A stretch of 24,433 bases of DNA from positions 1 to 24,433 of IMG/VR virus record IMGVR_UViG_3300030333_007582; one strand, given 5' to 3'. The notes under the pieces were generated by a model that was not told the DNA's origin, searched no databases, and saw only the letters and a program-made list of their open reading frames with translations. Position 1 is the first letter of the stretch. Each line of letters begins with the position of its first letter. The DNA comes from a virus. Made by a program: the position numbers and the translations under genes. Shown piece by piece: positions 3,496 through 22,117 of this stretch.

Positions 3496-3497
3496 AT

Positions 3498-5538: not shown

Positions 5539-5569
5539 CCTTATTAATATATACACTCTTTTAATAAGG
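5539..5569 (-). promoter_or_regulatory. AGTGTATAT promoter-like motif inside a 9-bp inverted repeat
   Basis: CCTTATTAA (5539-5547) and TTAATAAGG (5561-5569) form a perfect inverted repeat around 13 nt. The minus strand of that spacer reads AGTGTATAT (5557-5549), matching the motif seen before other first genes. The right arm covers the stop codon of the 472-aa gene. It could be a promoter, a weak terminator or both. Confidence 0.5.
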
Positions 5570-6979
5570 CGGAATCAGATTTGTTACTAATAAATCATTG
5601 CTTTCTTGCTGCAAATAAAAATTATCATCGTCACCGCCTTCTAAAAGAATAAAATCTTCTATTTTTTCCGCTCCTAGTACGCCGCTAATGAAAAATCCGT
5701 TATTTTGATTGTCAGGATTAACTTCCACGCTGAATGAAGCGTCAAAAATCTTATTATCTCCGATGCTTGAGCTGTAGCTAAAGTTCTCTAATTTTGCGCC
5801 GACAAAGCTATATCTTAGGGCTTCGTCGTTTCTCTTTATGGGAATCGCTCCTGCATTTATAGGGGCGGCTGTGCTTCCTGTGCATCCATTTGGGTCTACG
5901 CTTATTGTAAAATCGTATCCACTATTAATTTCTACTAAGTCTACTAGTGAGCCGCTGTTCCCGGATTGTACGATGCCCTGTATGGACAAATTTGCAAAAA
6001 TCGGCGAATTAGGCCGGTTATCGACAGGGAACTTGTATCCCATGTTATCCAGTGGAACTTTATTTAGATTAAGGTCAATGCTGTAGCTTTGTATATGTAG
6101 CTTGTCAAAATCGACTCCAAGTCCCGAAAACGAATCAGTGGTTATGGAGATATCTCCCGGTTGAAGAGCGGAGTAGCCTTCTTCTGCCAATATCCGAGGA
6201 ATGACGACGTCACTAATGTTAAATGGAGTCCCTGTCTTAGTATTAATATCAGGAGCCTTAAACCCGCTGCCGCTTAAATTAAAATCTATATTGTAAGCGT
6301 TATAAGCTACTGAAGCGCTTGGAAAATCTCCTACTGCTCCCCTTGTGGAGTAAGATTGTAAATAACAATTGCCAAATCCTATTACATGGTATCCGGGGGC
6401 ATTATCGTCTATACCTTGATATAAATCAGCTTGGGTAAAGTTTTCTTTAAAATATTCTTGATCTAAATCGTCTCCGCTTTGATTTACGGCTACATAAAAA
6501 TTACGACAATCTTTATACTGGTTGATAGCAAAATCTAACCCCGGGACCTTAACCGATCTATTTTTATTTTCTTCAAAGAAGCCTGACAGTAAAGAAACTC
6601 CTAAGTTGTTAGAATAAAATGGCGCGCCGTCTTTATTAAATTGGAATTGGGGATAATTTACATTTAAGCCAATTCTAGCTTCGTTTTTAGTGCCGCATAA
6701 AAGATAGTCAAAGTTAAGGCTAACAGTTGGATAGTTAATTATAGGTCTATCCACTAGCCCTCTTTGATTAAGTTGAGTTACGTTAGTATGGGGAACATTT
6801 ATGGAATAACTGACCGACTGGACTCTATCTATCGGATGGAGTAAATTAATTTTTTGATATAAGTCGGAATGATCGTTAGTAGGAGCCCCTCCGGTATAAT
6901 GTACAAAATTATAACCAGTTTCCGGTGCAGGTCCTACAAATAAGCCCTGACAATTGTAAATGACATTGGGCTTTGGCAT
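5561..6979 (-). CDS. Tail-tube-like virion protein with an internal domain duplication
   Basis: A 472-aa protein with no signal peptide. Two segments resemble each other: residues 53-94 (VQSVSYSINVPHTNVTQLNQ...VDRPIINYPTVSLNF) and 294-337 (LHIQSYSIDLNLNKVPLDNM...DNRPNSPIFANLSI). Each is followed by a second shared strand motif, at 205-235 (LQSYSTRGAVGDFPSASV) and 395-424 (LENFSYSSSIGDNKIFDASF). This A1-B1-A2-B2 order suggests two copies of one beta-sandwich of the kind found in tail tube and related virion proteins. The family assignment is inferred. The start overlaps the portal stop by one base and has a GAGGGAG ribosome site, so it is co-expressed with the portal. Major tail protein or a neck/baseplate component are the alternatives. 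Confidence 0.6.
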   Translation of the reverse strand: MPKPNVIYNCQGLFVGPAPETGYNFVHYTGGAPTNDHSDLYQKINLLHPIDRVQSVSYSINVPHTNVTQLNQRGLVDRPIINYPTVSLNFDYLLCGTKNEARIGLNVNYPQFQFNKDGAPFYSNNLGVSLLSGFFEENKNRSVKVPGLDFAINQYKDCRNFYVAVNQSGDDLDQEYFKENFTQADLYQGIDDNAPGYHVIGFGNCYLQSYSTRGAVGDFPSASVAYNAYNIDFNLSGSGFKAPDINTKTGTPFNISDVVIPRILAEEGYSALQPGDISITTDSFSGLGVDFDKLHIQSYSIDLNLNKVPLDNMGYKFPVDNRPNSPIFANLSIQGIVQSGNSGSLVDLVEINSGYDFTISVDPNGCTGSTAAPINAGAIPIKRNDEALRYSFVGAKLENFSYSSSIGDNKIFDASFSVEVNPDNQNNGFFISGVLGAEKIEDFILLEGGDDDNFYLQQESNDLLVTNLIPPY

Positions 6980-8853
6980 TATTTATCTCCCTCATAAACG
7001 CTCGCGTAAAGAATTCCAGCTAAGAAATCATCCACTTGATGCTCTAAAGCAACTTCTTGAATTTTCTTAACTCTTTCGTGGTCTCTGTCTGTTGGTTCTG
7101 CTGCATATCTCCCTGCTTTTGCGAGCCAACTGTCAGGTTCTTCATTAGCTATAACAATATTAGTAATTTCCCTAGCTACTTCTTTTTGTTGTTTGCTGAG
7201 TCTTTTCCTGCCATGTAACTGCCGCAACGAAGCTTCTACTTCAATGTTTAACTTATCGGAAAGATTTAGATTCTCTTGAATTTTAGATAAGCTAAAATTA
7301 AGCGCAGCTTTTGTACCTACTGGAGTTTTTGTATCAGTTTCTTTTGGCGCTTTAGCTCCGGCAGGTCTACCGTTCATTTGAGCGGCTTTAGCACCACCAA
7401 TGATCGGTTCGTACAAGCCTTCATTTCTGAACTCCTTAAATTTCTTTTGGGATTCCAGTGATTCTTCTTGGGTTGGGAACCTGCCAGACTCTATAGCCTG
7501 AACGCCCTCTTCAGGGGTCAAGACTCCGAGTTCAATAAGCCTGCTATATATTCTAGAATAAACTGACGTGTCCCTCAAATCCACATCTTCAAAATGAGCA
7601 GTTGGGTAATTTTTAAAACCCATTTCTTTAGAAATTCTTCTAATTTCTGGCATTAAGAAGTTTTCAAGGAAAACTCTACGCCCTTGCTTTAGGCGCTCCA
7701 TAAACACTTGAACCTTTATACTAGTATTAGCGAACTTCTCATCGCTAAGCAAAATATTGTTAAGGCCCATTTGAATGTCTTGATTTACTACATCATATTT
7801 TCTTGGGTCTAAAATATTACCTATATCAGGAATGACAAACTTAGCATCTGTAGTATAATCAGATATTAAAACTCTACCGACAGATTCATTCTCGAAGAGT
7901 TTTTGCATAGCCATGAGATTCTTTTGGTTAACTCCTCCGTCGGCGGGTTTAGCGCCCATTGTCACCAGAAGAATAGCTTGATTAGTGGTGCGGGCTACAG
8001 CCATATCCATTTGCTTCATCTCCTGTTTCCAGTTGATGTCCTCTAAGACCGGATACCCCATAGGCACCGCAAAAGGTTCATAGTCTTGCTTCTTGTAAAA
8101 TACCGCGCAAAGCTTTGTAGCGTCGAGTGGAATAGTTATCGCGGCCGCTCCGACTTTTTTTGTATTTTCTATGAGTTTTTTTGTCTCCGGCGGAAGGCTG
8201 TCGAAAACTTCTCTATCTTCTTCCGTTTGAGGGAACCTAAGTCTTTGCAACTCATAGTCAGTGACTACTTTATAGTAAATACCTGTACTAAAGGACACGC
8301 TTCCTTGAAGCTGTATGTCAGAAGGGTTTAAAATAATATACTTGGACGGTATCTCTAAATCGTCAGAGGCTTCAGCTAATCCAAAGGTTTGATTTAATTT
8401 CAAAGCGTCAGATCGGTCCATCTTAGCGTTGAACCTGTAAACGAAAACGTTTCCTGATCGATAATACTCTCTGAAAAACCTACTTTGTAGATCATCAATG
8501 TTTATTCTAGTGAGCAGGGTCTCGAAGAAATCCCTAGACTTTTTGCTTCCTCCCGTATAGTAAAGATCACTAATTGAGAACTCGGTCATCAAGTCAATAG
8601 TGTTTCTAAATACTGAAAAATTATAATACGCTTTTTGGCACAATATGATGGTGTCCCTAATGTCTATATTAGAATTATTAGTGACTCCGTGGGAATATTT
8701 AAACGGAATCATGCCGTTTTCGATATTCCTGAATCTATCCGTCCGAGGTATATCGGCAGCAGCGTTTCTACGGGTTCTCGTCTGGCTAGCCTTTGCTTCA
8801 TGCATAGCCATCAGTGGTTCCGCACCTTGTTCCGTTTTCTTCCTTACAGCCAT
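6979..8853 (-). CDS. Portal protein
   Basis: A 624-aa protein, a normal length for a phage portal, the dodecameric ring at the capsid vertex through which DNA passes. Residues 70-90 (LCQKAYYNFSVFRNTIDLMT) and the later YYRSGNVFVYRF resemble the portal clip/wing region. Around residues 290-400, a run with DIGNILDPRKYDVVNQDIQM and LNNILLSDEKFANTSIKVQ fits the crown/stem part. The C-terminal 130 residues are charged and helical. It lies directly after the large terminase, the classical order. The start lacks a Shine-Dalgarno sequence, but AGTGTAAAT lies 21 nt upstream, so it may open its own transcript. Confidence 0.85.
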   Translation of the reverse strand: MAVRKKTEQGAEPLMAMHEAKASQTRTRRNAAADIPRTDRFRNIENGMIPFKYSHGVTNNSNIDIRDTIILCQKAYYNFSVFRNTIDLMTEFSISDLYYTGGSKKSRDFFETLLTRINIDDLQSRFFREYYRSGNVFVYRFNAKMDRSDALKLNQTFGLAEASDDLEIPSKYIILNPSDIQLQGSVSFSTGIYYKVVTDYELQRLRFPQTEEDREVFDSLPPETKKLIENTKKVGAAAITIPLDATKLCAVFYKKQDYEPFAVPMGYPVLEDINWKQEMKQMDMAVARTTNQAILLVTMGAKPADGGVNQKNLMAMQKLFENESVGRVLISDYTTDAKFVIPDIGNILDPRKYDVVNQDIQMGLNNILLSDEKFANTSIKVQVFMERLKQGRRVFLENFLMPEIRRISKEMGFKNYPTAHFEDVDLRDTSVYSRIYSRLIELGVLTPEEGVQAIESGRFPTQEESLESQKKFKEFRNEGLYEPIIGGAKAAQMNGRPAGAKAPKETDTKTPVGTKAALNFSLSKIQENLNLSDKLNIEVEASLRQLHGRKRLSKQQKEVAREITNIVIANEEPDSWLAKAGRYAAEPTDRDHERVKKIQEVALEHQVDDFLAGILYASVYEGDK

Positions 8854-8865
8854 AATTTACTTTAA

Positions 8866-8874
8866 ATTTACACT
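8866..8874 (-). promoter_or_regulatory. AGTGTAAAT promoter-like motif before the portal gene
   Basis: The minus strand reads TAAGTGTAAATTTAAAG upstream of ATG 8853. The motif starts 21 nt from the start codon and overlaps the terminase stop codon. No Shine-Dalgarno sequence lies between the motif and the ATG. It is assigned by similarity to the other first-gene motifs in the window. Confidence 0.5.
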
Positions 8875-10706
8875 TAACCAAACATTTTGGGAGTAAATGT
8901 GTAGTTAATTTGCTCCTGCTTAGTATTTTTAAGGTCATTATAAGCTTTAACAGCCCAATTTCCCAACATTAAAGTAGTATAGTTATCTTTTCTCGCCCTG
9001 TTGGCGGATGTGCTTCTTTTTAAATGCTGCGGAAGGTCAAATGTCTGAATTCCTTTGGCCGTAGTTTTAACCTCTACAAGCGCGCATTGTTTTTTCGTTT
9101 GGTAAATAATATCGTCTTGAAATTCAATCAGGTCTCCTTTGTCCTGATACGGCATCAGTTTCAAGGGGACAGCTTGAGCTGAGACTTTGTCAAAGAAGCT
9201 GCCACACGCCGCCGTTCGGGAGGCAAACCAAATCCTTTTATGATCAATAGAAGCTTGTAGGTATTCATTAGCCTCTCTTAGAAAAGTGCTAGAAAACAAT
9301 TGCTTGAAGCAAATCATTTGCTCTTTTACATTATATTGGCTTTTCGCCTTGAGAAGCATCTGCTGGTAATCGTTCCCGGTTTTATCACTGTTGAATTCAA
9401 AAAATTTCAAGTCTATGTTAGCGCTTCTAAATAACTCTGATTCATTCGCGCTATCTATAAATTGATATCCAGCATTATCTATAATTAACAAAACAATATT
9501 AAAATTAGTCATTAAATAATGAAGATATTTTATATGATCTTTTAAGTCTCCTCCAGCTACAGCATATGCATGAACCAAAGTTGACTCGTTGCTTTTCTCT
9601 TCATCTAGCTCTAAAACCGACATCGCAAAGTAATCCGAACTTGGGCTGTTACTAAAACTAGGGTCAATAGCTAGAATATATTCTTTATCTTTTTCTCCTT
9701 TTATTAAAGTATGCTGTTTTTCTCCATCTGGGATTGTGCAATCATGCATTTTCTTTGCACTAAAATAGCTATCGCTACCATCAGTGAATTGGGCGCAATA
9801 TTCCCGCTGAAACGAAGAATTAGAAGATCCGCCGGATTGAGCTTCTTCAATTACGGTGCTGTCAATCATATCGCTAGGGATAGAATCAAAAGCCATCTGA
9901 GATATAAAATAACTAGACTGCTGTATATCTTCAGAGTAGATGTTATTCATCCATTCCTTATAGGTTTTAAAAAGGTTTTCAAAACTAAAGCTAGCAGAAG
10001 ACAAGGCTATCATTTTAGAATTGTTTTCAAATTGAACCCTATCCTCCTCCTTCATGTCTCCCTTCTTTATTAACTCATCTTCCATCTCGCGTATCTTAAT
10101 ACGCTCAGCCATATCCTGAGGAGCGACCAAAAATGGCATCAACACTGTTTTAATTGTTTCCTCCGGGAGTAGCAAGAACTCGTCAAGCACCAAAATGTTC
10201 GCGCGAAAACCACGAATCTTTTCTCCGCTTAAAGGAATAGCTGTTATGGTTCCCTCGTTAATTTTCCACTCAAACTGATCGTTACGTTTAGACTTTGCGC
10301 CAAAAGCATGAGCTAGCATTTGGGCTTCTTTTGATTCTACTATTTTTTCAAGATTGTTGAATATAAATCTAGCTGTACGAAAAGTAGGTCCTGCGATAAG
10401 TATTTTAGTTCTAGGTTCAAAAATACACTGCAGGAAACAATATACAGCTGCAATAAAACTCTTACCGCAGCCACGGCCCCACACGCACATACTAAAGTTT
10501 CGATTGAAAAAAGCTTTTAATGTTATCTCCTGATATAAAGCTAACTTAATTCCCGAAAGCAATTCGGTAGTAAAACCGAGGTTAGACCTCATGAATTTGG
10601 CTAAAGTAATTTTAGCCTGACGGTCCGGCAGTTCTCCTTTTAAATTAAGAAATTCTTCATTTAAATTAGGTATGGGTTTAGAGTATTTTTCAGGACAGTA
10701 CCACAT
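8874..10706 (-). CDS. Terminase large subunit (DNA-packaging ATPase and nuclease)
   Basis: A 610-aa protein. Walker A is WGRGCGKSF (residues 76-84). Walker B is ILVLDEF (171-177), with the catalytic Glu at 176. An SSAS coupling motif lies near 236-239. The RNase H-like nuclease follows, with AIDPSF (Asp348) and LLIIDNAG (Asp410), and a late ARKDNYTTLMLGNW segment near residue 580 that probably supplies the third acidic residue. Terminases use ATP to pump DNA through the portal and cut the concatemer. The start at 10706 overlaps the stop of a 26-aa ORF (TAATG) and has no Shine-Dalgarno sequence, so translation is probably coupled to that ORF. The portal follows directly. Confidence 0.95.
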   Translation of the reverse strand: MWYCPEKYSKPIPNLNEEFLNLKGELPDRQAKITLAKFMRSNLGFTTELLSGIKLALYQEITLKAFFNRNFSMCVWGRGCGKSFIAAVYCFLQCIFEPRTKILIAGPTFRTARFIFNNLEKIVESKEAQMLAHAFGAKSKRNDQFEWKINEGTITAIPLSGEKIRGFRANILVLDEFLLLPEETIKTVLMPFLVAPQDMAERIKIREMEDELIKKGDMKEEDRVQFENNSKMIALSSASFSFENLFKTYKEWMNNIYSEDIQQSSYFISQMAFDSIPSDMIDSTVIEEAQSGGSSNSSFQREYCAQFTDGSDSYFSAKKMHDCTIPDGEKQHTLIKGEKDKEYILAIDPSFSNSPSSDYFAMSVLELDEEKSNESTLVHAYAVAGGDLKDHIKYLHYLMTNFNIVLLIIDNAGYQFIDSANESELFRSANIDLKFFEFNSDKTGNDYQQMLLKAKSQYNVKEQMICFKQLFSSTFLREANEYLQASIDHKRIWFASRTAACGSFFDKVSAQAVPLKLMPYQDKGDLIEFQDDIIYQTKKQCALVEVKTTAKGIQTFDLPQHLKRSTSANRARKDNYTTLMLGNWAVKAYNDLKNTKQEQINYTFTPKMFG

Positions 10707-10786
10707 TAGTCTAAATAAGCTATGAGAATTATTAAAAATAAAATAATTAAAGCTTGTTCGTAAGTTAAAACAATTTTGCCTCTCAT
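10706..10786 (-). CDS. 26-aa single-helix membrane microprotein between the nuclease and the terminase
   Basis: The reading frame encodes MRGKIVLTYEQALIILFLII followed by LIAYLD. Its ATG overlaps the stop of the ERCC4 nuclease gene (ATGA, 10786-10783) and its TAA overlaps the terminase start (TAATG). It therefore fills the 76-nt gap exactly, with coupling junctions on both sides. Residues 11-24 form one hydrophobic helix after a short basic start, predicted N-in. The precise fit argues for a real gene over chance. It may also act mainly to carry ribosomes to the terminase start. Function unknown. Confidence 0.6.
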   Translation of the reverse strand: MRGKIVLTYEQALIILFLIILIAYLD

Positions 10787-11721
10787 AATAATTTTAGGTC
10801 ATAAGCTAATTGCAGATCGTGCTTCTCATCTAATACATCCGATAGTAAAAGTTTTTTAACCATCCTAATACACTCGTCTCTACCATTGACAAAGAGAAAC
10901 TGAATGTGGGGAAATTCCTGTATTAAGTCTCTAACATTATGAAAAATAAAATCAGGAGTTACCCTAGTATTTTTTTTGTAGACATGTTTTAATCTATTAA
11001 ACGCTAAACAGTCTTCTAATTTTCTTTCCACTAAAATAACCATGTAAGCGTCTTCTTCGGCCGCTCTATTTATTTCATTTTTAAATCTTTCTAAACCTGA
11101 ACTTAAAGTTCCTATCAAATCCGGAACCGACTTCCTCTCTATGTAGGTATTATTAGTTTTCTCTTTGTCGTTTAAGCAGTAGTCTCCAAATTTCAAACCT
11201 TTAACTTCAGTTGGGAAATCATCTATCCTTAAAGGCTTTTGCTCGCGCGAATCAATATAAATTAAATGTTCACTTGAATAAGTTTCTTTGTATTCTTTTT
11301 TTACAGGGATTTTTTTAAACTTGTTTTCGTACCCTATTTCTTCGCAAAGCTTATAGTAACTATCAAAAATTATTTCATAATATTGAACCGGAGGCATTGG
11401 TAATGTCCGCAGCTCTACTTGAGTTGGAGTATATTTTATATTTTTTTCATCTTTTCTTTTTTGAAGAATATCCCGGCAATAAGCTTGAGCTTTATCTATT
11501 GAGACTTTTTTTAACCAACTTTTTAAGTTAGTCTTACTATTAAAATCTGAAGAAAAATATTGTTCTTTATTTTTAAATTTTATCAAGTCTCCCGTATGCC
11601 TATCCTTCCTAGGGAAATACTTATGATAATAATCCGATATAGATAATTTATGCGCTTTGATATGAAGATGTAGTCCTCTATCTTTATTAAACTCTTTACC
11701 GCATTCTCGACATTTAACCAT
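10783..11721 (-). CDS. ERCC4-type nuclease with an N-terminal zinc finger
   Basis: A 312-aa protein. Residues 1-24 form a C2H2-type finger (Cys4, Cys7, His20, His24), and the following KLSISDYYHKYFP resembles MucR/Ros-type and phage endonuclease fingers. Residues 153-292 carry an ERCC4 (XPF/Mus81) nuclease core: IDSREQKP (Asp157, Arg159, Glu160), FGDY (Asp180), YIERKSVPD (Glu195-Arg196-Lys197, Asp201), then RFKNEINRA. The metal-binding ERK signature is intact, so an active structure-specific DNA endonuclease is expected. It overlaps the upstream gene by 8 nt and has a GAGGAAG ribosome site. Its place in the packaging operon suggests it resolves branched or concatemeric DNA before or during packaging, a role filled by endonuclease VII in T4. 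That role is inferred. Confidence 0.8.
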   Translation of the reverse strand: MVKCRECGKEFNKDRGLHLHIKAHKLSISDYYHKYFPRKDRHTGDLIKFKNKEQYFSSDFNSKTNLKSWLKKVSIDKAQAYCRDILQKRKDEKNIKYTPTQVELRTLPMPPVQYYEIIFDSYYKLCEEIGYENKFKKIPVKKEYKETYSSEHLIYIDSREQKPLRIDDFPTEVKGLKFGDYCLNDKEKTNNTYIERKSVPDLIGTLSSGLERFKNEINRAAEEDAYMVILVERKLEDCLAFNRLKHVYKKNTRVTPDFIFHNVRDLIQEFPHIQFLFVNGRDECIRMVKKLLLSDVLDEKHDLQLAYDLKLL

Positions 11722-12823
11722 TTAAAACTTCTTCCTCACTAATACCCATTATACGAGATTTTATATCTTCCATAGAGCTAAGCCTTTCTATTTCTGAAGA
11801 TATATTCTTCTTGCGTATTTCAGCTATCTTTATCATTTTATTACGAGACTCCTCGTCTTTCCAAAGTTCTACAAGGTTTAGTATAGACGCTGACTCTTGT
11901 AAAACCTTGCTTAGCCTCTGGCTCCTTTTCTCCTTCAACTCGTTAAGAAGTTTAGTTTGCCTATTGACGCACTGATTGTATTCAGTTTGCGCAGTATTGA
12001 TCGCTTCCACTAAGCTCATAGCCATCCTGCGGCCTTCTGTGTCCTCTGCGTTTTGATCTAATAAAGTCTGGAGTCTTTCTACTCTTCTTTGGATATTTGA
12101 GGCTATAACTACTTCCGCCGATAAAACAATGTACTGATCCACTTCCTCTTGGGAAAGATCTGACTTATCCCACGTATATCTCACAAAGCTACTCTCAAAT
12201 AATTCCCTGTCAGTTTCTACTGAATAAGTACTAATCTGATGAAGGAATCTAAAAGTATGCATGTAAGCAATTAAAGTGCTCATATTTTTTTTAATTTTAG
12301 GAGTGACCTTATCTTTGTCTATCCCATTATGAACATACTTGTTAACTCTTACTATTGCTCTTGATTCTGATTTAGGAGGAGCATAACCGCCCTCTACAGG
12401 AACGTCATCATTACTGTCTGAATATTTAATTTGATTAGGTAGGGCGTTGATAAACTCCGCTACGACTTTATACCTCAAATCTAAAGCTGAAATTTTATCG
12501 TCTTCGAAGATTAGCCGAGCCATGTCCATTGGTTTCATGGCGCTACAATTATTTGAAATGAATTCTTTTTGGTCTTCGTTAAGCTCTACTTTTTCTTTTG
12601 GGTAATATTTATTGGTGACTTTAGCTTCTAGGCTTTTTTCTGCCAAAAACTTTTTAACAGCCCTCCCATATTTAGACCTTCCGTCCTTCATCTCCTCTGG
12701 AACGTCAGGGAAGACTAGGGCTATAAGCTCCTTGACGTAAGGCGGATCATCTCCTCTTTTATTCCATTCTTCTAATATAGCTAATTCTTGATCCGTGTTT
12801 AAAGTTATATTTTTATTGCTCAT
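11714..12823 (-). CDS. Candidate terminase small subunit (duplicated N-terminal motif, helical C-terminus)
   Basis: A 369-aa protein. Two N-terminal segments look related: 8-62 (LNTDQELAILEEW...LIALVFPD...GRAVKKFL) and 81-128 (LNEDQKEFIS...MARLIFED...YKVVAEFI). This suggests a duplicated small helical, possibly DNA-binding, domain. Residues from about 180 on are strongly helical and charged, with coiled-coil-like stretches near 245-345. Two DNA-binding modules followed by an oligomerising helical region, placed two cistrons before the large terminase, fit a small terminase. I see no diagnostic signature, so this remains inference. The start overlaps the sigma-like gene stop (ATGA) and the end overlaps the nuclease start by 8 nt. 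Confidence 0.45.
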   Translation of the reverse strand: MSNKNITLNTDQELAILEEWNKRGDDPPYVKELIALVFPDVPEEMKDGRSKYGRAVKKFLAEKSLEAKVTNKYYPKEKVELNEDQKEFISNNCSAMKPMDMARLIFEDDKISALDLRYKVVAEFINALPNQIKYSDSNDDVPVEGGYAPPKSESRAIVRVNKYVHNGIDKDKVTPKIKKNMSTLIAYMHTFRFLHQISTYSVETDRELFESSFVRYTWDKSDLSQEEVDQYIVLSAEVVIASNIQRRVERLQTLLDQNAEDTEGRRMAMSLVEAINTAQTEYNQCVNRQTKLLNELKEKRSQRLSKVLQESASILNLVELWKDEESRNKMIKIAEIRKKNISSEIERLSSMEDIKSRIMGISEEEVLNG

Positions 12824-13503
12824 AGTATTTCTATCTCGCCGCTAGCTATAATCTTTTTGACTTTTACGATAATTGATTTTTTTACATTCTTTATTTGTTT
12901 GTAGCCCGGAACTCTATTTTTCTCATTAGTCTTATACCCCATTAAAGTAGCAGCATCTTCTTCAGACATATTGTCAATGTATAAAGCTTTATAAATTTTC
13001 CACTCGCTAGACTTAAGGATTTCTTTCATTTTTTCATTAAGTTTTTCCATCAATGCAAAAATATCTATATCGCTATATTCAGCAGCATTAATTTCTATTT
13101 CATGGTCGTTTATGGAAACTGGGAGCTTTGCGTCATAGGCTTGTTTTCTCGTCCTCGTCCAATTTGCAAAAAGAGGACATGCTTCCGATTGTTTGCCGTA
13201 TATGTAACACAAATCACCCGACTCAGCAGCAGCGCATTTCAAACAAGGCCGACAATAATTTCCATAGTTGTTGCGGATTAAATTTTTTATCTGATTAGAT
13301 ATAATCCTGTTTATCCATGGATTAAGCGGCTTCTGTGGGTCATAAAGATGCCACTTTTTAAATATATGAATTCTTAGAATTTGCGAGACGTCATCAAAAT
13401 CCATCCACGAGAGCGCAGTCAAGTTCCATTTGGATTTTCTTTTTTTTATCTCTGCATCTATTTGTTCTATATGGTCTTCAAATTTTAGCTTACGTTTCGG
13501 CAT
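12820..13503 (-). CDS. Sigma70-family-like factor with a cysteine-rich insert (candidate late sigma)
   Basis: A 227-aa protein. Residues 35-80 (MDFDDVSQILRIHIFKKWHL then NPWINRIISNQIKNLIRN) match the pattern of sigma70 region 2, which binds the RNA polymerase beta-prime coiled coil and the -10 element. Residues 150-218 (EEDAATLMGYKTNE...YKQIKNVKKSIIVKVKK) resemble a region 4 helix-turn-helix. Between them Cys84, Cys87, Cys90, Cys99 and Cys109 probably bind zinc. The size and two-part layout recall T4 gp55, which drives late transcription, but homology cannot be judged here. It overlaps the upstream zinc-ribbon gene by 14 nt and the next gene by 4 nt. The GTGTAATA motifs in the window are candidate targets. 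Confidence 0.65.
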   Translation of the reverse strand: MPKRKLKFEDHIEQIDAEIKKRKSKWNLTALSWMDFDDVSQILRIHIFKKWHLYDPQKPLNPWINRIISNQIKNLIRNNYGNYCRPCLKCAAAESGDLCYIYGKQSEACPLFANWTRTRKQAYDAKLPVSINDHEIEINAAEYSDIDIFALMEKLNEKMKEILKSSEWKIYKALYIDNMSEEDAATLMGYKTNEKNRVPGYKQIKNVKKSIIVKVKKIIASGEIEIL

Positions 13504-13879
13504 TACGACGGGATGACCCAGCTTCCCTTAAAAAATCCTGCTCTGCAGTATCTTTTGAATAACTAGGATCTACTTCCCTCCTGTAGCCGTCGTCTATATT
13601 TTTTTCATTTGAACCCGCTAATTCTTCTATTTTAAAATGATTCATTCTAGAAGAACCTTCTATATTAAAATCTAGTTTGTCTATATTTGTAGAAAAATAT
13701 TCCTCCTCCTCTTCCTCCTCTATTTTTGTATTTTGCACTGTAGCCACAGGTTTGAATACTTTTTTTGCGGTAGAGGCGGTACTTATTTTAGTAAAAGAAC
13801 TACCACAAGAAGCACAAAATTGAGGTTTATTCAAAGAGTACTCCGTGCCGGAGCCGCAAGATGGGCAATAAAGTTTCAT
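13490..13879 (-). CDS. Small zinc-ribbon protein, first gene of the packaging operon
   Basis: A 129-aa protein. The N-terminal zinc ribbon uses Cys5-Cys8 and Cys22-Cys25 (CPSCGSG...CASCGSSF). A Ser/Thr/Lys linker, an acidic run of seven Glu near residue 56, and a polar C-terminal tail follow. No catalytic residues are visible. The ORF overlaps the sigma-like gene by 14 nt, so the two products are made together. A transcription accessory role, as for small co-activators paired with phage late sigma factors, is possible but inferred. TGTGTAATA lies 15 nt upstream of the ATG, and there is no Shine-Dalgarno sequence. Confidence 0.6.
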   Translation of the reverse strand: MKLYCPSCGSGTEYSLNKPQFCASCGSSFTKISTASTAKKVFKPVATVQNTKIEEEEEEEYFSTNIDKLDFNIEGSSRMNHFKIEELAGSNEKNIDDGYRREVDPSYSKDTAEQDFLREAGSSRRNAET

Positions 13880-13885
13880 ATTTTT

Positions 13886-13894
13886 TATTACACA
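13886..13894 (-). promoter_or_regulatory. TGTGTAATA promoter-like motif before the packaging operon
   Basis: The minus strand reads TTTTGTGTAATAAAAAATATG, with the ATG at 13879. The motif begins 15 nt from the start codon. This is the left half of a divergent promoter pair in an AT-rich 70-nt gap. Confidence 0.55.
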
Positions 13895-13930
13895 AAATAT
13901 ATTATTAAAAAATAAAGGTTTTTCAAAAAA

Positions 13931-13939
13931 AGTGTATTA
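13931..13939 (+). promoter_or_regulatory. AGTGTATTA promoter-like motif
   Basis: The plus strand reads AAAAAAAGTGTATTATACTA and then ATAAGTATG, with the ATG at 13950. The motif begins 19 nt from the start. The GTG inside the motif opens the same frame but lies within the presumed promoter. Confidence 0.55.
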
Positions 13940-13949
13940 TACTATAAGT

Positions 13950-14234
13950 ATGCGTAGCTCTAAGTTCACAAATGCGGATGGCGTTGAATATGAGTTATTG
14001 TGGAAAAAACCACACTATAAGTACAACGCAGAGGGATTGTGTTGCTCACCAGAATCTGATGAACCTAAGATATTAATTGATCCTACATTAAAAAATAGAA
14101 GGAAAATGAGCGTGTTAATAGAGGAAATCACTCATGCTTTCTTTTGGGAAAAAAGCGAGAGGGAAGTCCGAAAATTTTCTTCTACTCTAGCTAAGTTAAT
14201 TCAAAAAAATATTAAGGAACCTCGTTCTCATTGA
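13950..14234 (+). CDS. Small zincin-like protein with a degenerate metal-binding motif
   Basis: A 94-aa protein (MRSSKFTNADGVEYELLWKK). The segment ILIDPTLKNRRKMSVLIEEI followed by THAFFWEKSE resembles small phage proteins whose helix carries a HExxH-type motif (usually HEMLHA-like). Here the first His is Glu (EEITHA), so one metal ligand is missing and catalysis is doubtful. The start is placed at ATG 13950; an in-frame GTG at 13932 lies inside the promoter-like motif. The gene converges on phoH, with a 23-nt overlap of the 3' ends, so antisense interference is possible. Function unknown. Confidence 0.6.
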   Translation: MRSSKFTNADGVEYELLWKKPHYKYNAEGLCCSPESDEPKILIDPTLKNRRKMSVLIEEITHAFFWEKSEREVRKFSSTLAKLIQKNIKEPRSH

Positions 14235-14973: not shown

Positions 14974-14981
14974 CACTATCA

Positions 14982-15004
14982 TTTTACACTAAAAAAGTGT
15001 AATA
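14982..15004. promoter_or_regulatory. Divergent palindromic promoter pair, TTACACT-AAAAA-AGTGTAA
   Basis: TTACACT (14984-14990) and AGTGTAA (14996-15002) are perfect inverted arms around five A residues. The minus strand reads AGTGTAAAA towards phoH, 17 nt before ATG 14973. The plus strand reads AGTGTAATA (14996-15004) towards ATG 15019, 23 nt away. One element thus appears to serve both directions. Confidence 0.6.
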
Positions 15005-15018
15005 CCCTAAAGAAACTT

Positions 15019-15528: not shown

Positions 15529-15749
15529 AAAAGATATTATTATTAAGTGTTTTTCTTTTATCTGGATGTATGTCTATTGATGAAAAAGGCAGACTGGAAA
15601 AGGTTAGGTTTTCTGTCCCTGCGTTTTTTCAGGTAGAAATGGACTATTATAAAGATAGAGAAAATTTAGGGAGATCAGTTGTAAATACTAACGCCCCTCC
15701 CAAAATAGGTAATCCATATCCAAAATTAATGGAAATGACTCGAAAATAA
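15525..15749 (+). CDS. Small lipoprotein
   Basis: A 74-aa protein with an N-terminal signal peptide and lipobox: MKKILLLSVFLLSGC, with the lipidated Cys at 15. The mature part is about 60 residues, polar, ending in Met-Glu-Met-Thr-Arg-Lys, without a long coiled coil. The start overlaps the stop of the MscS-like gene (ATGA), so the two are made together and may act together at the envelope. Outer spanins are phage lipoproteins of similar size, but I see neither the Pro-rich body nor an embedded partner gene, so I do not assign that role. Confidence 0.65.
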   Translation: MKKILLLSVFLLSGCMSIDEKGRLEKVRFSVPAFFQVEMDYYKDRENLGRSVVNTNAPPKIGNPYPKLMEMTRK

Positions 15750-15757
15750 GTGTAACA
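15749..15757 (+). promoter_or_regulatory. AGTGTAACA promoter-like motif
   Basis: The motif overlaps the stop codon of the lipoprotein gene and begins 22 nt before ATG 15771. It fits the first-gene motif with one deviation (C for T at position 8). Confidence 0.4.
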
Positions 15758-15770
15758 AAGAAATAGAGAA

Positions 15771-16334
15771 ATGAAAGAAATAGATTTCACTGAACAAATC
15801 GTTAAATGGCGCGCAGAACAGGAAGCCGCCATGACTAAAAAGCAGTACGAAAAAATCGATACTAAAGAGCTGAAACGTGACGACAAAAAAGAAAAAAAGG
15901 AACACGAAAAAGACGCTCTCAAAGATGACGATAGCAAAATCAAAAAATTAAAGAAGGGGAAGCCTTCTGAAAAGAAAAGCGTAGAAATTCATGATATTAA
16001 GAAAGACGAGAAATACGATAAGAAAAAGCTCAAAGAAATGAAGAGCGCAGTTCTTTCTACTAAAACGAAAAATGATCTACCCGATTCGGATTTTGCTTAT
16101 ATCGAGCCGGGAGGGGAAAAAGATTCTGAGGGGAAAACGGTACCCCGATCATTACGTCACCTTCCAATTAATGATGCTGCTCATGTGCGTAATGCATTAG
16201 CTAGGTTAGACCAAACCAAAATCAGTGAAGAGGCCAAAAAGTCAGCCCTGAAAAAAATTAAAGCTGCGGCCAAGAAGTTCGGAGTTAAGGTCAGTGAGGC
16301 ATCAGCTTCTGTAGATTATTCTGATCTATATTAA
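15771..16334 (+). CDS. Charged protein with a DUF6582-like C-terminal domain
   Basis: A 187-aa protein. Residues 1-95 are extremely charged (Lys, Glu and Asp dominate) and probably helical or disordered. Residues 100-178 (LPDSDFAYIEPGGEKDSEGK then RSLRHLPINDAAHVRNALAR) match the pattern I associate with DUF6582, often found in phage head-maturation genes or their fusions. The combination of a charged helical arm and a small conserved C-terminal domain would suit a scaffold, internal head protein or packaging accessory, but this is inference. It has its own promoter-like motif and ends shortly before a strong terminator. Confidence 0.55.
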   Translation: MKEIDFTEQIVKWRAEQEAAMTKKQYEKIDTKELKRDDKKEKKEHEKDALKDDDSKIKKLKKGKPSEKKSVEIHDIKKDEKYDKKKLKEMKSAVLSTKTKNDLPDSDFAYIEPGGEKDSEGKTVPRSLRHLPINDAAHVRNALARLDQTKISEEAKKSALKKIKAAAKKFGVKVSEASASVDYSDLY

Positions 16335-16353
16335 TTGATAAGAAATAAAACAA

Positions 16354-16385
16354 AAAGCCCCGCGCAATGCGGGGCTTTATTTTTT
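16354..16385. terminator. Bidirectional rho-independent terminator
   Basis: A perfect 10-bp stem, AAAGCCCCGC (16354-16363) and GCGGGGCTTT (16369-16378), with the loop GCAAT. On the plus strand it is followed by ATTTTTT, ending the 15019-16334 unit. On the minus strand the stem is followed by TTGTTTTATT, so it can also stop transcription from the 16516-16902 gene. Confidence 0.9.
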
Positions 16386-16514
16386 GGCGTATAGAAGTAT
16401 TAAATTATCTTCCAGACAAAACCTTACTGAAATACGTCCAATTTATTGAGTAGTGTAGGCAGTGTAAAACACTTCATCGTGTATCTGGCTCAAAACACTT
16501 AACTCGAAAAGCAT
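16377..16514 (-). pseudogene. Possible broken micro-ORF downstream of the secreted coil gene
   Basis: From ATG 16514 the minus strand encodes MLFELSVLSQIHDEVFYTAY and then TTQ before a TAA at 16445-16443. The frame then stays open for 21 more codons (IGRISVRFCLEDNLILLYAK, then Lys) to a stop at 16379-16377 inside the terminator stem. The composition looks protein-like on both sides of the stop, and TAA is one change from a Tyr codon. It could also be chance in a short stretch. The plus strand of the same region contains several GTGTA copies. Confidence 0.25.
16450..16502. promoter_or_regulatory. Cluster of GTGTA/TACAC elements of unknown role
   Basis: Within about 50 nt the plus strand holds AGTGTAGG, AGTGTAAAACACTT (an inverted repeat), CGTGTATC and AAAACACTT. 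The core matches the promoter-like motif, but no gene start lies close enough. It may be a protein-binding site or a promoter for an unrecognised RNA. Confidence 0.25.
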
Positions 16515-16515
16515 T

Positions 16516-16902
16516 TTACTCGCCGGGTTTATTTTCGTCAATAACTTTATCGCGTTTATTTGCGAATTCTTTTTTTATGCCTTCCATCCTTTTTTTCATT
16601 TCCTCCCGGTGCTTTTTTCTTAACTCATGCAGCTCCTTGTGGAGTTCCTTCATCTTCTCCCGAAGCTCATTCAATTCTTCGCTGTCTATTTTTTTACCCT
16701 TCCAATTATGTCGGCGTTTTTTACTTTCGATATGCTTTTTTCTTTTTTCCGCTGCCGCTTTGAATCTCTCTTTGAGTTTTTCTTTGTCTACTTTTTCCGG
16801 ACGAGGTTTGCCTTTGTGTTTATTAGGTTTAGCTTCGGCCGTTGTTAACACTGACGCAATAATAGCGATCAGTCCATACTTGAAGATATTTTTTACCATC
16901 AT
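16516..16902 (-). CDS. Secreted, highly charged coiled-coil protein
   Basis: A 128-aa protein with an N-terminal signal peptide (MMVKNIFKYGLIAIIASVLT then TAEA, cleavage expected after residue 24). The mature part is Lys/Arg/Glu-rich, strongly basic at first, and forms a long helix with heptad-like spacing around residues 74-118 (EELNELREKMKELHKELHEL). Export to the periplasm is inferred. It could start at the second Met (16899). AGTGTATAATAA lies 21 nt upstream, and the gene is divergent from a small membrane peptide. No family recognised. Possible roles include envelope interaction or nucleic acid or polyanion binding. Confidence 0.6.
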   Translation of the reverse strand: MMVKNIFKYGLIAIIASVLTTAEAKPNKHKGKPRPEKVDKEKLKERFKAAAEKRKKHIESKKRRHNWKGKKIDSEELNELREKMKELHKELHELRKKHREEMKKRMEGIKKEFANKRDKVIDENKPGE

Positions 16903-16911
16903 GGTGTTACT

Positions 16912-16936
16912 TTATTATACACTTCTACGTGTAATA
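16912..16936. promoter_or_regulatory. Divergent GTGTA-type promoter pair
   Basis: The minus strand reads AGTGTATAATAA (16923-16912) towards ATG 16902. The plus strand reads CGTGTAATA (16928-16936) towards ATG 16943. The two halves form an imperfect inverted repeat (TTATTATACAC, 6 nt, GTGTAATAAG). Each motif lies 15-21 nt from its ATG. Confidence 0.55.
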
Positions 16937-16942
16937 AGTTGT

Positions 16943-17155
16943 ATGAAGAAAAGGGATATTTTAATAGTAGTCTTAGGAGTCGCCCTGCTGGTTTCTGTTA
17001 TCTGGATGATGCAAGGAGACGAAATTAAAGAAAAAGTTGCTGAGAGCGCAAAAGAGGCGGCAAAAGAAGCGGTTGTAGACAAGGTCGTAGACGAAGTGTC
17101 GGATAAAGCTAAAGAAAAACTAAAAGAAGAAGTTTTAGATAAGCTGTTGCCGTGA
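16943..17155 (+). CDS. Small membrane-anchored Lys/Glu/Ala-rich helical peptide
   Basis: A 70-aa protein. One membrane helix occupies residues 5-22 (DILIVVLGVALLVSVIWM), preceded by MKKR. The rest is an amphipathic Lys/Glu/Ala/Val helix (KEAAKEAVVDKVVDEVSDKA). The start is placed at ATG 16943, 15 nt after the promoter-like motif begins; longer in-frame starts run into the oppositely coded gene. It overlaps the XRE gene by 4 nt (GTGA). One membrane helix plus a charged amphipathic tail would suit a membrane-perturbing or scaffold peptide. Function unknown. Confidence 0.55.
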   Translation: MKKRDILIVVLGVALLVSVIWMMQGDEIKEKVAESAKEAAKEAVVDKVVDEVSDKAKEKLKEEVLDKLLP

Positions 17156-17499
17156 ATGAGTTTCACATATACCTCAAAGAGCTAAGGTCAAGAAAATACG
17201 ACAACATCACTAAGCTCTCGAGACTCCTAAAGGTTAGTTATCAAATGTGGCGCAAAATAGAAAGGGGAATAAACCCACCTCCCCAAAAATCTTTATTAAC
17301 TAATTTTTGCAATTTGGTAGGAGTTAAAGAGTATGAAAGGAACCAGCTGTTCGCTTTAGCAAGAAAGTGGACTCCTCATCCAGATACTAATTCCGCAAAT
17401 CACGGTCTATATCATGATGGACTTGGTCCAGATTGGGTTCAAGCTATTATAAACGAAAACACACCTGATTATCCCCACAAGTATTGGAGAAAGCGTTAA
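17152..17499 (+). CDS. XRE/Cro-type helix-turn-helix protein
   Basis: A 115-aa protein. Residues 18-66 (NITKLSRLLKVSYQMWRKIE then RGINPPPQKSL) form a Cro/CI-type helix-turn-helix with the usual WxxxERG signature after the recognition helix. The C-terminal 45 residues (HPDTNSANHGLYHDGLGPDW and on) are not recognised. The start is GTG in a GTGA overlap with the upstream gene, so the two are coupled. It probably binds DNA as a transcriptional regulator. The 3' end overlaps the convergent gene by 4 nt. Its targets are unknown; the CCGG palindromes in this window are one candidate. Confidence 0.7.
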   Translation: MNEFHIYLKELRSRKYDNITKLSRLLKVSYQMWRKIERGINPPPQKSLLTNFCNLVGVKEYERNQLFALARKWTPHPDTNSANHGLYHDGLGPDWVQAIINENTPDYPHKYWRKR

Positions 17500-18224
17500 G
17501 CTGATGGATACTCGGGAATATTGTCTTCTCTATATATTTTAGATCTTAGCGGAGAATGCTTTTCAACTTCTTTTTTATCTTCTTCCGGATAATGGTTATA
17601 AAAAAAATAAGGGCTATTACCATATGATCTATCTATGTCTTCAGAAGTTAAGGGTTCGTTAAATATTTTTACTTTAGGGGGTTCATCCTTAGGATACGGT
17701 ACAATAAAGTCAGGATTATGCCAGCGCAAAAGATTATTGGGGGGTATGGCATAGTTCCCATCATCCAATTCCAAAAAGTGGTAACACTTTGAGTCTTGGT
17801 CGTTAGCATACCCAATATTGAGTTCATTAAGGTCTCCCTCGTAGTCGTCGATAGTAAAAACATACTTGCCAGAACGCCATACTCTGTCCCTGCAGAATAT
17901 GTCCACCCTACGGTTTTGCAAAAAGCCGAATGTTGTAACTGCGATATCATTATCCTGACAATCCCATGTCTGCAATAGAGATAGTCTTTGCTCTTCGCTT
18001 TCAGATAATGCGTCATAGTCCTCTTTATGACAAAACGCCGAAATTGGCATCTGCCAAAAAACCGCCCCAAACTGCGCTTGAAAATGAAAGTGCATAGGAC
18101 GGTTTATCATAGACTTTACACCAAATATATAGCCTTCTGTTAGCCCACTGTCTTCTGGACCGAATATATACTTATTGCGAATGAAGCACTGGATGTAGGG
18201 GGTGTTTGCATTTAGTTGTGCCAT
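17496..18224 (-). CDS. Conserved-looking protein of unknown function
   Basis: A 242-aa protein (MAQLNANTPYIQCFIRNKYI). It is aromatic-rich (many Tyr, Phe and Trp) with a well-mixed globular composition and no signal peptide or membrane helix. Residues around 40-60 (RPMHFHFQAQFGAVFWQMPI) and 160-185 (NYAIPPNNLLRWHNPDFIVP) look like structured cores. The last 40 residues are charged and Pro/Tyr-rich. I do not recognise a family. ATG 18224 is chosen because the longer reading begins with TTG and runs through the divergent promoter region. Confidence 0.6.
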   Translation of the reverse strand: MAQLNANTPYIQCFIRNKYIFGPEDSGLTEGYIFGVKSMINRPMHFHFQAQFGAVFWQMPISAFCHKEDYDALSESEEQRLSLLQTWDCQDNDIAVTTFGFLQNRRVDIFCRDRVWRSGKYVFTIDDYEGDLNELNIGYANDQDSKCYHFLELDDGNYAIPPNNLLRWHNPDFIVPYPKDEPPKVKIFNEPLTSEDIDRSYGNSPYFFYNHYPEEDKKEVEKHSPLRSKIYREDNIPEYPSA

Positions 18225-18233
18225 ATCTGTATA

Positions 18234-18247
18234 ATTTACGTGTAATA
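18234..18247. promoter_or_regulatory. Divergent promoter-like element ATTTACGTGTAATA
   Basis: The plus strand reads CGTGTAATA (18239-18247), 18 nt before ATG 18257. The minus strand reads CACGTAAAT (18242-18234), 18 nt before ATG 18224. The plus copy fits the consensus well; the minus copy has two mismatches in the GTGTAA core. Confidence 0.45.
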
Positions 18248-18256
18248 TTATCGTGT

Positions 18257-18547
18257 ATGCCAAGTGAAAATAAAAAAATATCTTTTGGGGATTTGGATGG
18301 GTTCCTTAAATTTGCTCCAATTATCGGTATAGGTATATTAGCTTATCTTCAAACATTATTTCCTAGCAAAGTGGAATTCGAAAAACTAGAAGACCATTTG
18401 ATTCAAATGGATAAAAAAATAACCGAAATCACTATACTGCAAAAAGATACTTCAAATAACACGTCTGCTATAAGAGATTTAAATACAAGGTTACGGGAAA
18501 TAGAAATTGAGTTAGCTTCCCATCACGCAAAAGAAATTAAAAAATGA
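18257..18547 (+). CDS. Small membrane protein with a coiled-coil tail
   Basis: A 96-aa protein. Residues 16-36 (LKFAPIIGIGILAYLQTLF) form a membrane helix. Residues 38-92 form a charged heptad-like coil (EFEKLEDHLIQMDKKITEIT). The layout resembles inner spanins, some holins or membrane anchors, but no signature decides between them. ATG 18257 is preferred because an in-frame upstream ATG at 18206 lies within the divergent gene. It overlaps the following HMA gene by 4 nt (ATGA), so the two are probably made together. Confidence 0.55.
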   Translation: MPSENKKISFGDLDGFLKFAPIIGIGILAYLQTLFPSKVEFEKLEDHLIQMDKKITEITILQKDTSNNTSAIRDLNTRLREIEIELASHHAKEIKK

Positions 18548-18855
18548 CTAATTCAGTATTATTAGCGGCGGCTTTATTTTTTCAACCTGATTTAGAAATT
18601 AAAATTAATGGTTTAGTTTGTTCTTCTTGTGGGATCGGTATTAAGAGGGGCTTTAAGAAGCATTCCGAAATATTAGATATTAAATTTGATACTCGCAAAC
18701 AGGTCGCCTTAATAGATTTAAAAGAGAGTGATGCCGGTAGGGTATATTGGATTAAAAACGATAAAATTATAAAAATCGTAAAAGACGCCGGTTATGAAGT
18801 CACTAGCATCAAAAGGCTCTGGAATAAAAAGCCTAACCGGTATAACAAGCCGTAG
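18544..18855 (+). CDS. Exported HMA-domain (heavy-metal-binding) protein
   Basis: A 103-aa protein. The short N-terminal hydrophobic stretch (MTNSVLLAAALFFQ) looks like a signal peptide. Residues 17-90 fit an HMA domain of the MerP/CopZ type: LEIKINGLVCSSCGIGIKRG carries the CxxC ligands Cys26 and Cys29 after G23. The second half (IVKDAGYEVTSI) has the usual KxAGYxV strand. These domains bind Cu(I), Hg(II) or similar soft metals. Export would place it in the periplasm. It is coupled to the membrane coil gene and ends just before a terminator. The metal and role in infection are unknown. Confidence 0.7.
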   Translation: MTNSVLLAAALFFQPDLEIKINGLVCSSCGIGIKRGFKKHSEILDIKFDTRKQVALIDLKESDAGRVYWIKNDKIIKIVKDAGYEVTSIKRLWNKKPNRYNKP

Positions 18856-18858
18856 TTC

Positions 18859-18905
18859 CTAAAAAAAATCGCAGCCCCTACGAAAGGAGCTGCGACTTAG
18901 GAACT
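18859..18905. terminator. Convergent terminator between the plus and minus units
   Basis: A 10-bp stem, TCGCAGCCCC (18869-18878) with GGAGCTGCGA (18886-18895), with one C-A mismatch on plus that is a G-U pair on minus. On the minus strand it is followed by eight T (18868-18861), a strong terminator for the 18917-20013 unit. Outer arms AGTTCCTAA and TTAGGAACT extend the stem, and plus-strand transcripts meet TTTTT at 18911. Confidence 0.85.
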
Positions 18906-18916
18906 TAATGTTTTTA

Positions 18917-19129
18917 TTACGAGCTGCCTGCGCCCACGTTACCATCTACCGTACCTATACCGACGTTAGCCTCAGGCTCTGGCGTTGGTTCTGGTTCTGG
19001 CTCAGGGGCGGGCTCTGGCGCTGGTGCTGGAGCCGAAGACCCGGCTCCTACATTACCTTCGTCTGCTGGTAGACCCATGCGGGTCTTCCAGTAGTTTTCA
19101 TCTCTTTTATGTGCTTCTCTTGGGTCCAT
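18917..19129 (-). CDS. Pro/Glu-rich peptide carrying fibre-type NVGIGT motifs
   Basis: A 70-aa protein. The N-terminus, MDPREAHKRDENYWKTRMGL, is charged. It is followed by GNVGAGSS, a Pro-Ala-Glu-Thr linker (residues 33-53, mostly PE/PA repeats), then ANVGIGT and a final GNVGAGSS. NVGIGT is the same motif repeated in the long fibre at 1-3495. A rigid PE linker between short motifs suggests a virion linker or adaptor, which is inferred. A TAGGAG ribosome site precedes the start. It is the last gene before a strong terminator and shares a unit with two paralogous proteins. Confidence 0.6.
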   Translation of the reverse strand: MDPREAHKRDENYWKTRMGLPADEGNVGAGSSAPAPAPEPAPEPEPEPTPEPEANVGIGTVDGNVGAGSS

Positions 19130-19147
19130 AATGCTTTATCTCCTAAA

Positions 19148-19582
19148 TTAATCTGGGTAAACTTGACCAGTTACTACTGCTCCTGAAAAAGCAGGAACAC
19201 AAGCTAAAGCCCATGCTTGAGCACCGTTACGAATATCGGAGCTATTAGCCATCCAGCCAGAAACACTATTAGCTGTCCAACTCCAGTCATTTGGTAAAGC
19301 TGGTCCGAGTCTTTTAGTTCCAGTGACTTCGCCGCTAACACCAGTAAGATCTTCGTACTGATAATGATCAGTGCCGCTGACCATTCCGCAGCTATACTGA
19401 TTCCAACGTTCAATAGGTGGCTTGCCAGCGTTATAATAGTCTACGTCGTGATAGCCCCAAATATTGACAACAGCATTCTGATCTTCTTTTTTTGATGCAG
19501 CAGTATTAACCTCAACAATACCGAAATCCCAGTAATTAAGTGTTGAGCCAGCGTCGGTTGTAATTGCTTTATAAAGTCCCAT
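19148..19582 (-). CDS. Small conserved protein, paralogue of the next gene upstream
   Basis: A 144-aa protein (MGLYKAITTDAGSTLNYWDF). Residues 73-134 match the 142-aa neighbour closely: EDLTGVSGEVTGTKRLGPAL and then SGWMANSSDIRNGAQAWALA. The first 70 residues have diverged. Cys65 and Cys128 are conserved between the two and could form a pair. The shared core is Trp/Gly-rich and probably beta-structured. No signal peptide. A GGAG ribosome site precedes the start. It is probably a virion or tail-associated protein; no family is recognised. Confidence 0.6.
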   Translation of the reverse strand: MGLYKAITTDAGSTLNYWDFGIVEVNTAASKKEDQNAVVNIWGYHDVDYYNAGKPPIERWNQYSCGMVSGTDHYQYEDLTGVSGEVTGTKRLGPALPNDWSWTANSVSGWMANSSDIRNGAQAWALACVPAFSGAVVTGQVYPD

Positions 19583-19584
19583 GA

Positions 19585-20013
19585 TTATTCTCCTTCAGTT
19601 AATGCGTCTGTTGCTCCAGAAAAGAAAGGCACGCAGTTCTTTAACCAAACGTATGCTCCGCTTCTAATATCGTCGCTTCTCTGCATCCAGCCGGATACAC
19701 CGTTCTCGGCCCAATCCCAACCATCGGGAAGAGCAGGGCCAAGGCGTTTTGATCCGGTTACTTCACCAGAAACGCCTGTAAGGTCTTCGTAGTCATAATA
19801 ATCTACTGCACCAGAGTATGGGCAGTTATACATATTACCATCAACGGAGGGAGCGCCTTGATTTCGATAAGTTTCGTTAGTAAATCCCAAGGTATTGATA
19901 TTGGAGCCGTAGTCCGGACCAGTAGTGCCTTGGAACCAATTCTCAACACGGCTGATCTTCCAATAATCAGCTTGTTGACCGTCATCCTTGGTATAATTTA
20001 GGTTAAGTCCCAT
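19585..20013 (-). CDS. Small conserved protein, first of a tandem paralogous pair
   Basis: A 142-aa protein (MGLNLNYTKDDGQQADYWKI). Residues 74-134 share EDLTGVSGEVTGSKRLGPAL and then SGWMQRSDDIRSGAYVWLKN with the following gene; Cys64 and Cys127 correspond to its Cys65 and Cys128. The two genes are separated by only 2 nt. TGTGTAATA lies 18 nt upstream of the ATG with no Shine-Dalgarno sequence, so this gene opens the unit. Function unknown; a structural role is suggested by the NVGIGT peptide in the same unit. Confidence 0.6.
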   Translation of the reverse strand: MGLNLNYTKDDGQQADYWKISRVENWFQGTTGPDYGSNINTLGFTNETYRNQGAPSVDGNMYNCPYSGAVDYYDYEDLTGVSGEVTGSKRLGPALPDGWDWAENGVSGWMQRSDDIRSGAYVWLKNCVPFFSGATDALTEGE

Positions 20014-20022
20014 GTTACAACA

Positions 20023-20031
20023 TATTACACA
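20023..20031 (-). promoter_or_regulatory. TGTGTAATA promoter-like motif
   Basis: The minus strand reads TTATTGTGTAATATGTTGTA and then ACATG, with the ATG at 20013. The motif starts 18 nt from the start codon. It is identical over nine bases to the motif before the packaging operon (13894-13886). Confidence 0.6.
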
Positions 20032-22107: not shown

Positions 22108-22117
22108 ACTTACTTAA

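Follow-up and report, generated by a model that had tools for sequence, protein, structure and literature searches.

Large phages can reprogram the host RNA polymerase with sigma factors of their own, as SPO1 does with gp28 and gp33/gp34. The late promoters of T4 have the consensus TATAAATA. They form a short single -10 block before the late genes and are read by the phage sigma gp55 on the host core enzyme (PMC5780444). In phiEco32, gp36, a sigma similar to the extracytoplasmic function (ECF) group, reads one element, tAATGTAtA, before middle and late genes, early transcription relies on host sigma70, and start sites were measured 6-8 nt past the element (PMC8948821). Here, we describe a short element with the core GTGTAAT (in full about AGTGTAATAT) and a sigma-70-like gene in a single virus-collection record of 24,433 bases (IMGVR_UViG_3300030333_007582, hereafter the window). 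Judging from the sequence, we consider it likely that GTGTAAT is a -10-type promoter read by the host core enzyme with the phage sigma encoded at 12820-13503, and that host sigma70 starts the early genes and the sigma operon.

The closest known system appears to be that of phiEco32 gp36, whose mode of action would be very similar: a phage-encoded sigma, a single element without a -35 block, middle and late genes downstream, and a TGTA core common to both. However, phiEco32 is a podovirus of ~78 kb, and its element has an A at the first G of ours and TATA where ours has TAAT. The consensus tAATGTAtA is not matched by AGTGTAATAT, and TAATGT, present in 24 copies in the window, is never found in the start zone (12-32 nt upstream of gene starts). 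gp36 is without region 4, whereas the window's sigma seems to have retained an end resembling region 4 and contains a four-cysteine insert. Homology between the two proteins was rejected (blastp E 11, hhalign probability 0.1), and because none was detectable we do not claim membership in the gp36 system. In a similar pipeline, phiEco32 showed no enrichment of GTGTAAT.

The likeness to T4 late promoters, drawn in an earlier note on this DNA, is right in kind (a short single block at -10, late genes, a phage sigma on the host core), but phiEco32 is closer. The T4 consensus differs from AGTGTAATAT, the top upstream word here being GTGTAAT, and the gp55 system depends on a sliding clamp and gp33. 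No match to a gp55 family was found in Pfam or PHROGs, gp55 itself being outside this comparison. gp47 of phage 7-11 is also a phage sigma that steers the host core polymerase to late genes, but its promoter is bipartite, GTAAtg-(16)-aCTA, with a -35-like block; the promoters of SPO1 have two blocks, and the sequences are unrelated. Two traits of the general kind, a phage sigma with a cognate promoter, are seen in our data: a sigma-70 family gene is present, and a shared element distinct from the host promoter precedes functionally grouped genes. No earlier description of a GTGTAAT/sigma pair was found in an open-access library, where a text search gave nothing relevant among the matches listed, and no cultured relative of this phage lineage was found by its sigma gene. 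The comparison argues well for a putative new sigma/promoter pair of this known kind.

The earlier note had listed 11 near-identical nonamers before gene starts on both strands. All are present and each points at an ATG; what they have in common is GTGTA[AT], the exact nonamer AGTGTAATA being found once in the window. Related contigs, including G1 (144 kb) and G2 (170 kb), were retrieved with the window's sigma and terminase proteins and used to compare orthologous sites. The putative promoter elements are as follows.

5549..5557, minus strand: element AGTGTATAT, 29 nt before ATG 5527; kept in G1 (113601) and G2 (137381)
8866..8874, minus strand: element AGTGTAAAT, 20 nt before ATG 8853 (portal-like gene); kept in G1/G2
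13886..13894, minus strand: element TGTGTAATA, 14 nt before ATG 13879, first gene of the sigma/TerL operon; kept in the near clade
13931..13939, plus strand: element AGTGTATTA, 18 nt before ATG 13950
14982..14990, minus strand: element AGTGTAAAA, 16 nt before ATG 14973 (PhoH-like gene); in the ortholog comparison
14996..15004, plus strand: element AGTGTAATA, 22 nt before ATG 15019 (MscS-like gene); in the ortholog comparison
15749..15757, plus strand: element AGTGTAACA, 21 nt before ATG 15771; in the ortholog comparison
16915..16923, minus strand: element AGTGTATAA, 20 nt before ATG 16902
16928..16936, plus strand: element CGTGTAATA, 14 nt before ATG 16943
18239..18247, plus strand: element CGTGTAATA, 17 nt before ATG 18257; in the ortholog comparison
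20023..20031, minus strand: element TGTGTAATA, 17 nt before ATG 20013; in the ortholog comparison

The first base of GTGTA[AT] lies at 5556, 8873, 13893, 14989, 16922 and 20030 on the minus strand and at 13932, 14997, 15750, 16929 and 18240 on the plus strand. The distance to the ATG, previously given as 15-30 nt, ranges from 14 to 29 nt. The core GTGTAA had also been called rare elsewhere. Over the whole window it shows no global excess (12 copies, with 10.25 expected from dinucleotide shuffles), and the signal is positional. Eight of the 12 copies fall in the start zone, which makes up 1.1% of the sequence (0.13 expected, binomial p 1e-13); the same zone holds 11 of 22 GTGTAW copies (0.25 expected, binomial p 2e-16), and GTGTAA is the most enriched there of all 6-mers. 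These p-values are slightly optimistic, since the small-gene starts at 13950, 16902 and 16943 were picked with the motif in view, which leaves the tests in the relatives unaffected. Four GTGTAA copies, rather than the two coding ones first noticed, lie outside the start zone (4150, 5424 and 16462 on the plus strand, 18121 on the minus strand). The plus-strand GTGTAW copies at 16462 and 16479 are in an intergenic stretch (16440-16500) that follows a terminator-like hairpin. No gene starts nearby, and the two copies could drive an RNA antisense to 16516-16902.

In the relatives, every 7-mer within 50 nt upstream of genes was counted without giving the search a motif. Such motif discovery had been proposed as a check, and it returned the element as a top upstream word in every relative tested. 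GTGTAAT ranked first in G1 and G2 (11 seen and 0.15 expected, 11 and 0.13, respectively) and in a second clade with sigma proteins about 59-69% identical to that of the window (76 seen, 1.68 expected). GTGTAA ranked first in a contig with a sigma of 39% identity (4 of 9 upstream regions), in contig L235 (8 of 14) and, among 6-mers, in four more diverged records of 78-116 kb and 30-44% GC; in one of these, G012, the 7-mer ranking was led by TTGACT words. The word recurs across contigs whose sigma is 65% and 39% identical to the window's. Sequences within a clade are related and clade-level p-values overstate independence, which does not affect the recurrence across clades. Expectation-maximisation motif finding yielded AGTGTAATAT at widths of 12 and 28 and only A-rich noise at a width of 9. 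The only matches of the sigma in genome collections were contigs L235 and L236, binned as Flavobacteriales or Flavobacteriaceae metagenome-assembled genomes. We did not assign the host to that group, as early promoters of the TTGACA/TATAAT type do not fit it.

Alignment of 45 sites from G1 and G2 showed a single block, approximately A-W-N-N-A-GTGTAATATWA, in which the GTGTA core is fixed by the site selection. Essentially no information was found 35 to 8 nt upstream of the element, which thus lacks a -35 block. In G1, the element stands before 23 of 71 first genes of transcription units but only 1 of 67 internal genes; in G2 the figures are 18 of 74 and 3 of 83. When 97 pairs of orthologs were compared between the two genomes, 18 had the element in both, four in one only and 75 in neither (p 1e-15), meaning that it was retained at 18 of 22 orthologous sites. 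GTGTA is identical in 18/18 conserved pairs, partly by construction, and flanking positions agree in 5-15 of the 18. First-gene bias, single block and ortholog conservation fit a putative promoter and not a translation signal. Together with the recurrence in relatives and the placement before virion genes, they support the earlier suggestion of a phage-specific promoter, and each of its predictions accessible to computation had an outcome in its favour. When TGTAAT was aligned to the register of TATAAT, the shortest distance to the ATG was nearly equal for both promoter types (12-13 nt); one site lies 10 nt from its ATG, and a second in-frame ATG is found there. As promoters of both types are near the ATG in G1 and G2, many messages may be leaderless. 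In both genomes, GTGTAAT comes immediately after the terminator-like end CGGCCCGGTTTTTTT (G1 42506, G2 51825).

The genes behind the element were classified by family searches. In G1, the GTGTAW element is found mainly at 48-129 kb, a part that carries terminase, portal, tape-measure, lambda-J-like, baseplate-like and fibre genes. Promoters of the TTGACA/TATAAT type occupy 2-48 kb and 130-144 kb, with genes for DNA polymerase, primase, helicase, ribonucleotide reductase and dCMP deaminase. Each of the ten virion genes that we traced has a GTGTAW site upstream. GTGTAW, conserved in G1 and G2, also stands before the primase-helicase and ribonucleotide-reductase units; two replication genes are behind sigma70-type promoters, and one more was not assignable. 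Sigma70-type promoters are about tenfold above shuffles and stand mainly before other genes than those of the element. A plain late promoter is ruled out by the conserved sites before primase-helicase and ribonucleotide reductase, and because of these units middle and late, judged by gene function, is probably the better label.

The earlier account did not include the sigma-70-like gene. We propose its product as the reader of the element; it lies in the operon listed below together with its promoters.

13899..13926, minus strand: sigma70-like promoter TTGAAA-N16-TAATAT, 5 nt upstream of the phage element
13490..13879, minus strand: first gene of the operon, small zinc-ribbon-like protein with an acidic stretch (from the translation), overlapping the sigma gene
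12820..13503, minus strand: sigma-70-like gene, 227 aa, proposed reader of the element (Pfam Sigma70_r2, 4e-6, over the cut-off)
11714-12823, minus strand: gene without known function (family searches)
10783-11721, minus strand: ERCC4-type nuclease (family searches)
8874-10706, minus strand: terminase large subunit, TerL (family searches); the remainder of the operon spans 8874..12823

Besides the window, G1 and G2, six more records gave a Sigma70_r2 match above its cut-off, and the window-type sigma gene is present in every long record that carries the motif. Against NCBIfam TIGR02937 (sigma70-ECF), the window's protein reached 2.4e-9 and 37 bits, under the cut-off of 42.9. Region 2 spans about residues 32-79, followed by four cysteines (87, 90, 99 and 109) and a C-terminal helical region, which may be region 4. 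Across 60 diverse members, invariant residues are concentrated in region 2 and in the four cysteines. Because these invariant cysteines lie between region 2 and the C-terminal part, the stretch is suggested to be a zinc-binding insert. Sequences in the PDB gave no significant match, and the structure models had modest confidence (pLDDT, the predicted local distance difference test, of 67 and 71), too weak for a firm fold assignment, which was dropped. The zinc-ribbon-like protein had no family match in our searches and is a possible co-factor of the sigma. A polymerase encoded by the phage, as in the N4, phiKZ, AR9 and P23-45 types, was judged a less likely reader: no RNA polymerase beta' domain was found in four long records in which positive controls were detected, and among the late proteins the large ones without annotation are tail fibre, tape-measure or lectin-like. 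A search for a T7-type RNA polymerase, run without a positive control, was empty.

The promoter region of the sigma operon is paired. At 54 of 54 scorable loci of the near clade we found TTGAAA and TANNAT separated by exactly 16 nt, with GTGTAW following after another 1 or 5 nt. The bases that vary in TANNAT are at positions where sigma70 tolerates variation. Among the 45 GTGTAW promoters of G1 and G2, this tandem layout occurs only at the sigma operon. Many second-clade members have a sigma70-like promoter (e.g., TTGACA-N16-TATAAT) before the operon, without GTGTAW. Most simply read, host sigma70 would make the first phage sigma, and in the near clade this sigma would go on to amplify its own synthesis.

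In the proposed sequence of events, host sigma70 would first transcribe the early genes from TTGACA/TATAAT promoters and also the sigma operon from TTGAAA-N16-TANNAT. The phage sigma, bound to the host core, would then read GTGTAAT without a -35 element, both at the site 5 nt downstream of the host-type promoter, amplifying its own operon, and at ~20 other sites before virion, packaging, primase-helicase and ribonucleotide-reductase genes. If transcription starts 6-8 nt past the element, as in phiEco32, many transcripts would start at the ATG or no more than a few nt from it, and leaders of a few nt or none are predicted for many messages. A more far-reaching version, which we put forward tentatively and regard as somewhat doubtful, is that this is an undescribed sigma class (region 2, an invariant four-cysteine insert that is likely zinc-binding, a divergent region 4) that reads a fixed GTGTAAT although the protein has diverged to 39% identity, with a self-amplifying switch via an upstream sigma70 promoter and near-leaderless mRNAs, in a widespread group of uncultivated phages.

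Several observations weigh against reading by the window's sigma and against the two-step scheme. G1 and G2 carry a second sigma-like gene, so that the assignment to the window's sigma rests on co-occurrence. This sigma seems to keep a region-4-like C-terminus though the promoter has no -35 block, its structure model is weak (pLDDT 71), and its Foldseek matches, mostly sigma factors, many of them ECF, plus other proteins, include none below E 0.001. For individual genes, mutual exclusion of the two promoter types is no more than a trend in G1 (p 0.07), and G2 does not show it. The tandem pattern was recognized in alignments before being counted, and TTGAAA also stands just upstream of the divergent element at 13931.

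The explanation that survives best beside our own, though we think it unlikely, keeps the element as a promoter and has it read by the second sigma-like protein, sigma-B, or by a host alternative sigma. Among six long records, sigma-B is found in G1 and G2 only.

G1 38782-39384 (= L136:18782-19384), minus strand: sigma-B, 200 aa, above the cut-off of the ECF superfamily model
G2 54857-55456, plus strand: sigma-B, 199 aa

Its gene sits among early and nucleotide-metabolism genes, as expected for a regulator made early. However, tblastn did not find sigma-B in G009-G012, which are fragments, although GTGTAA is still enriched in them and all of them have the window's sigma; G009 has a different second sigma. 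A host sigma, for its part, would not be expected to follow one phage lineage. Much less probable is a binding box for a phage activator that, like MotA of T4, recruits the host sigma70 enzyme. The element is short, conserved and directional, as such a box would be, but it often lies only 14-17 nt before the ATG, which leaves no room for a separate -10 hexamer and a start, and the logo has no second block downstream. Slightly less probable still is a role in RNA, as a translation or stability signal of the 5' leader. The element is close to start codons, and AAGGAG is not among the top upstream words of G1 and G2 but is in phiEco32 (similar pipeline). Genes inside operons need translation starts too, yet only 4 of 150 have the element, compared with 41 of 145 first genes, which agrees with the earlier remark that operon-internal genes mostly lack it; its spacing to the ATG, moreover, ranges from ~14 to 34 nt. 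Chance or AT-rich composition, which would explain why the window total equals the shuffled expectation, is already refuted by the start-zone enrichment, by the return of the word in all relatives tested (among them records with a GC content of 30% and 44%) and by the ortholog conservation.

If the promoter reading with the phage sigma is true, the transcription programme of a widespread, uncultivated phage lineage follows from it, and early genes could be told from middle and late ones straight from metagenomic contigs. The new sigma/promoter pair could serve as an orthogonal expression tool. It would also be a natural case of a sigma gene that is bootstrapped by a host promoter and then drives itself, and the differences between the clades (tandem in the near clade, often sigma70-like only in the second) make the evolution of the switch testable.

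Two further features of the window were observed at its ends. From 22000 to 24433, GC climbs from ~0.37 to 0.46-0.54, over small genes without a GTGTAW element. At the other end, 1-3497 on the minus strand is a long fibre-like open reading frame with a repeated motif, in plus-strand reading CCTAT.CC.AC.TT.CC, of which six copies were found by the strict pattern and more when it was relaxed by eye.

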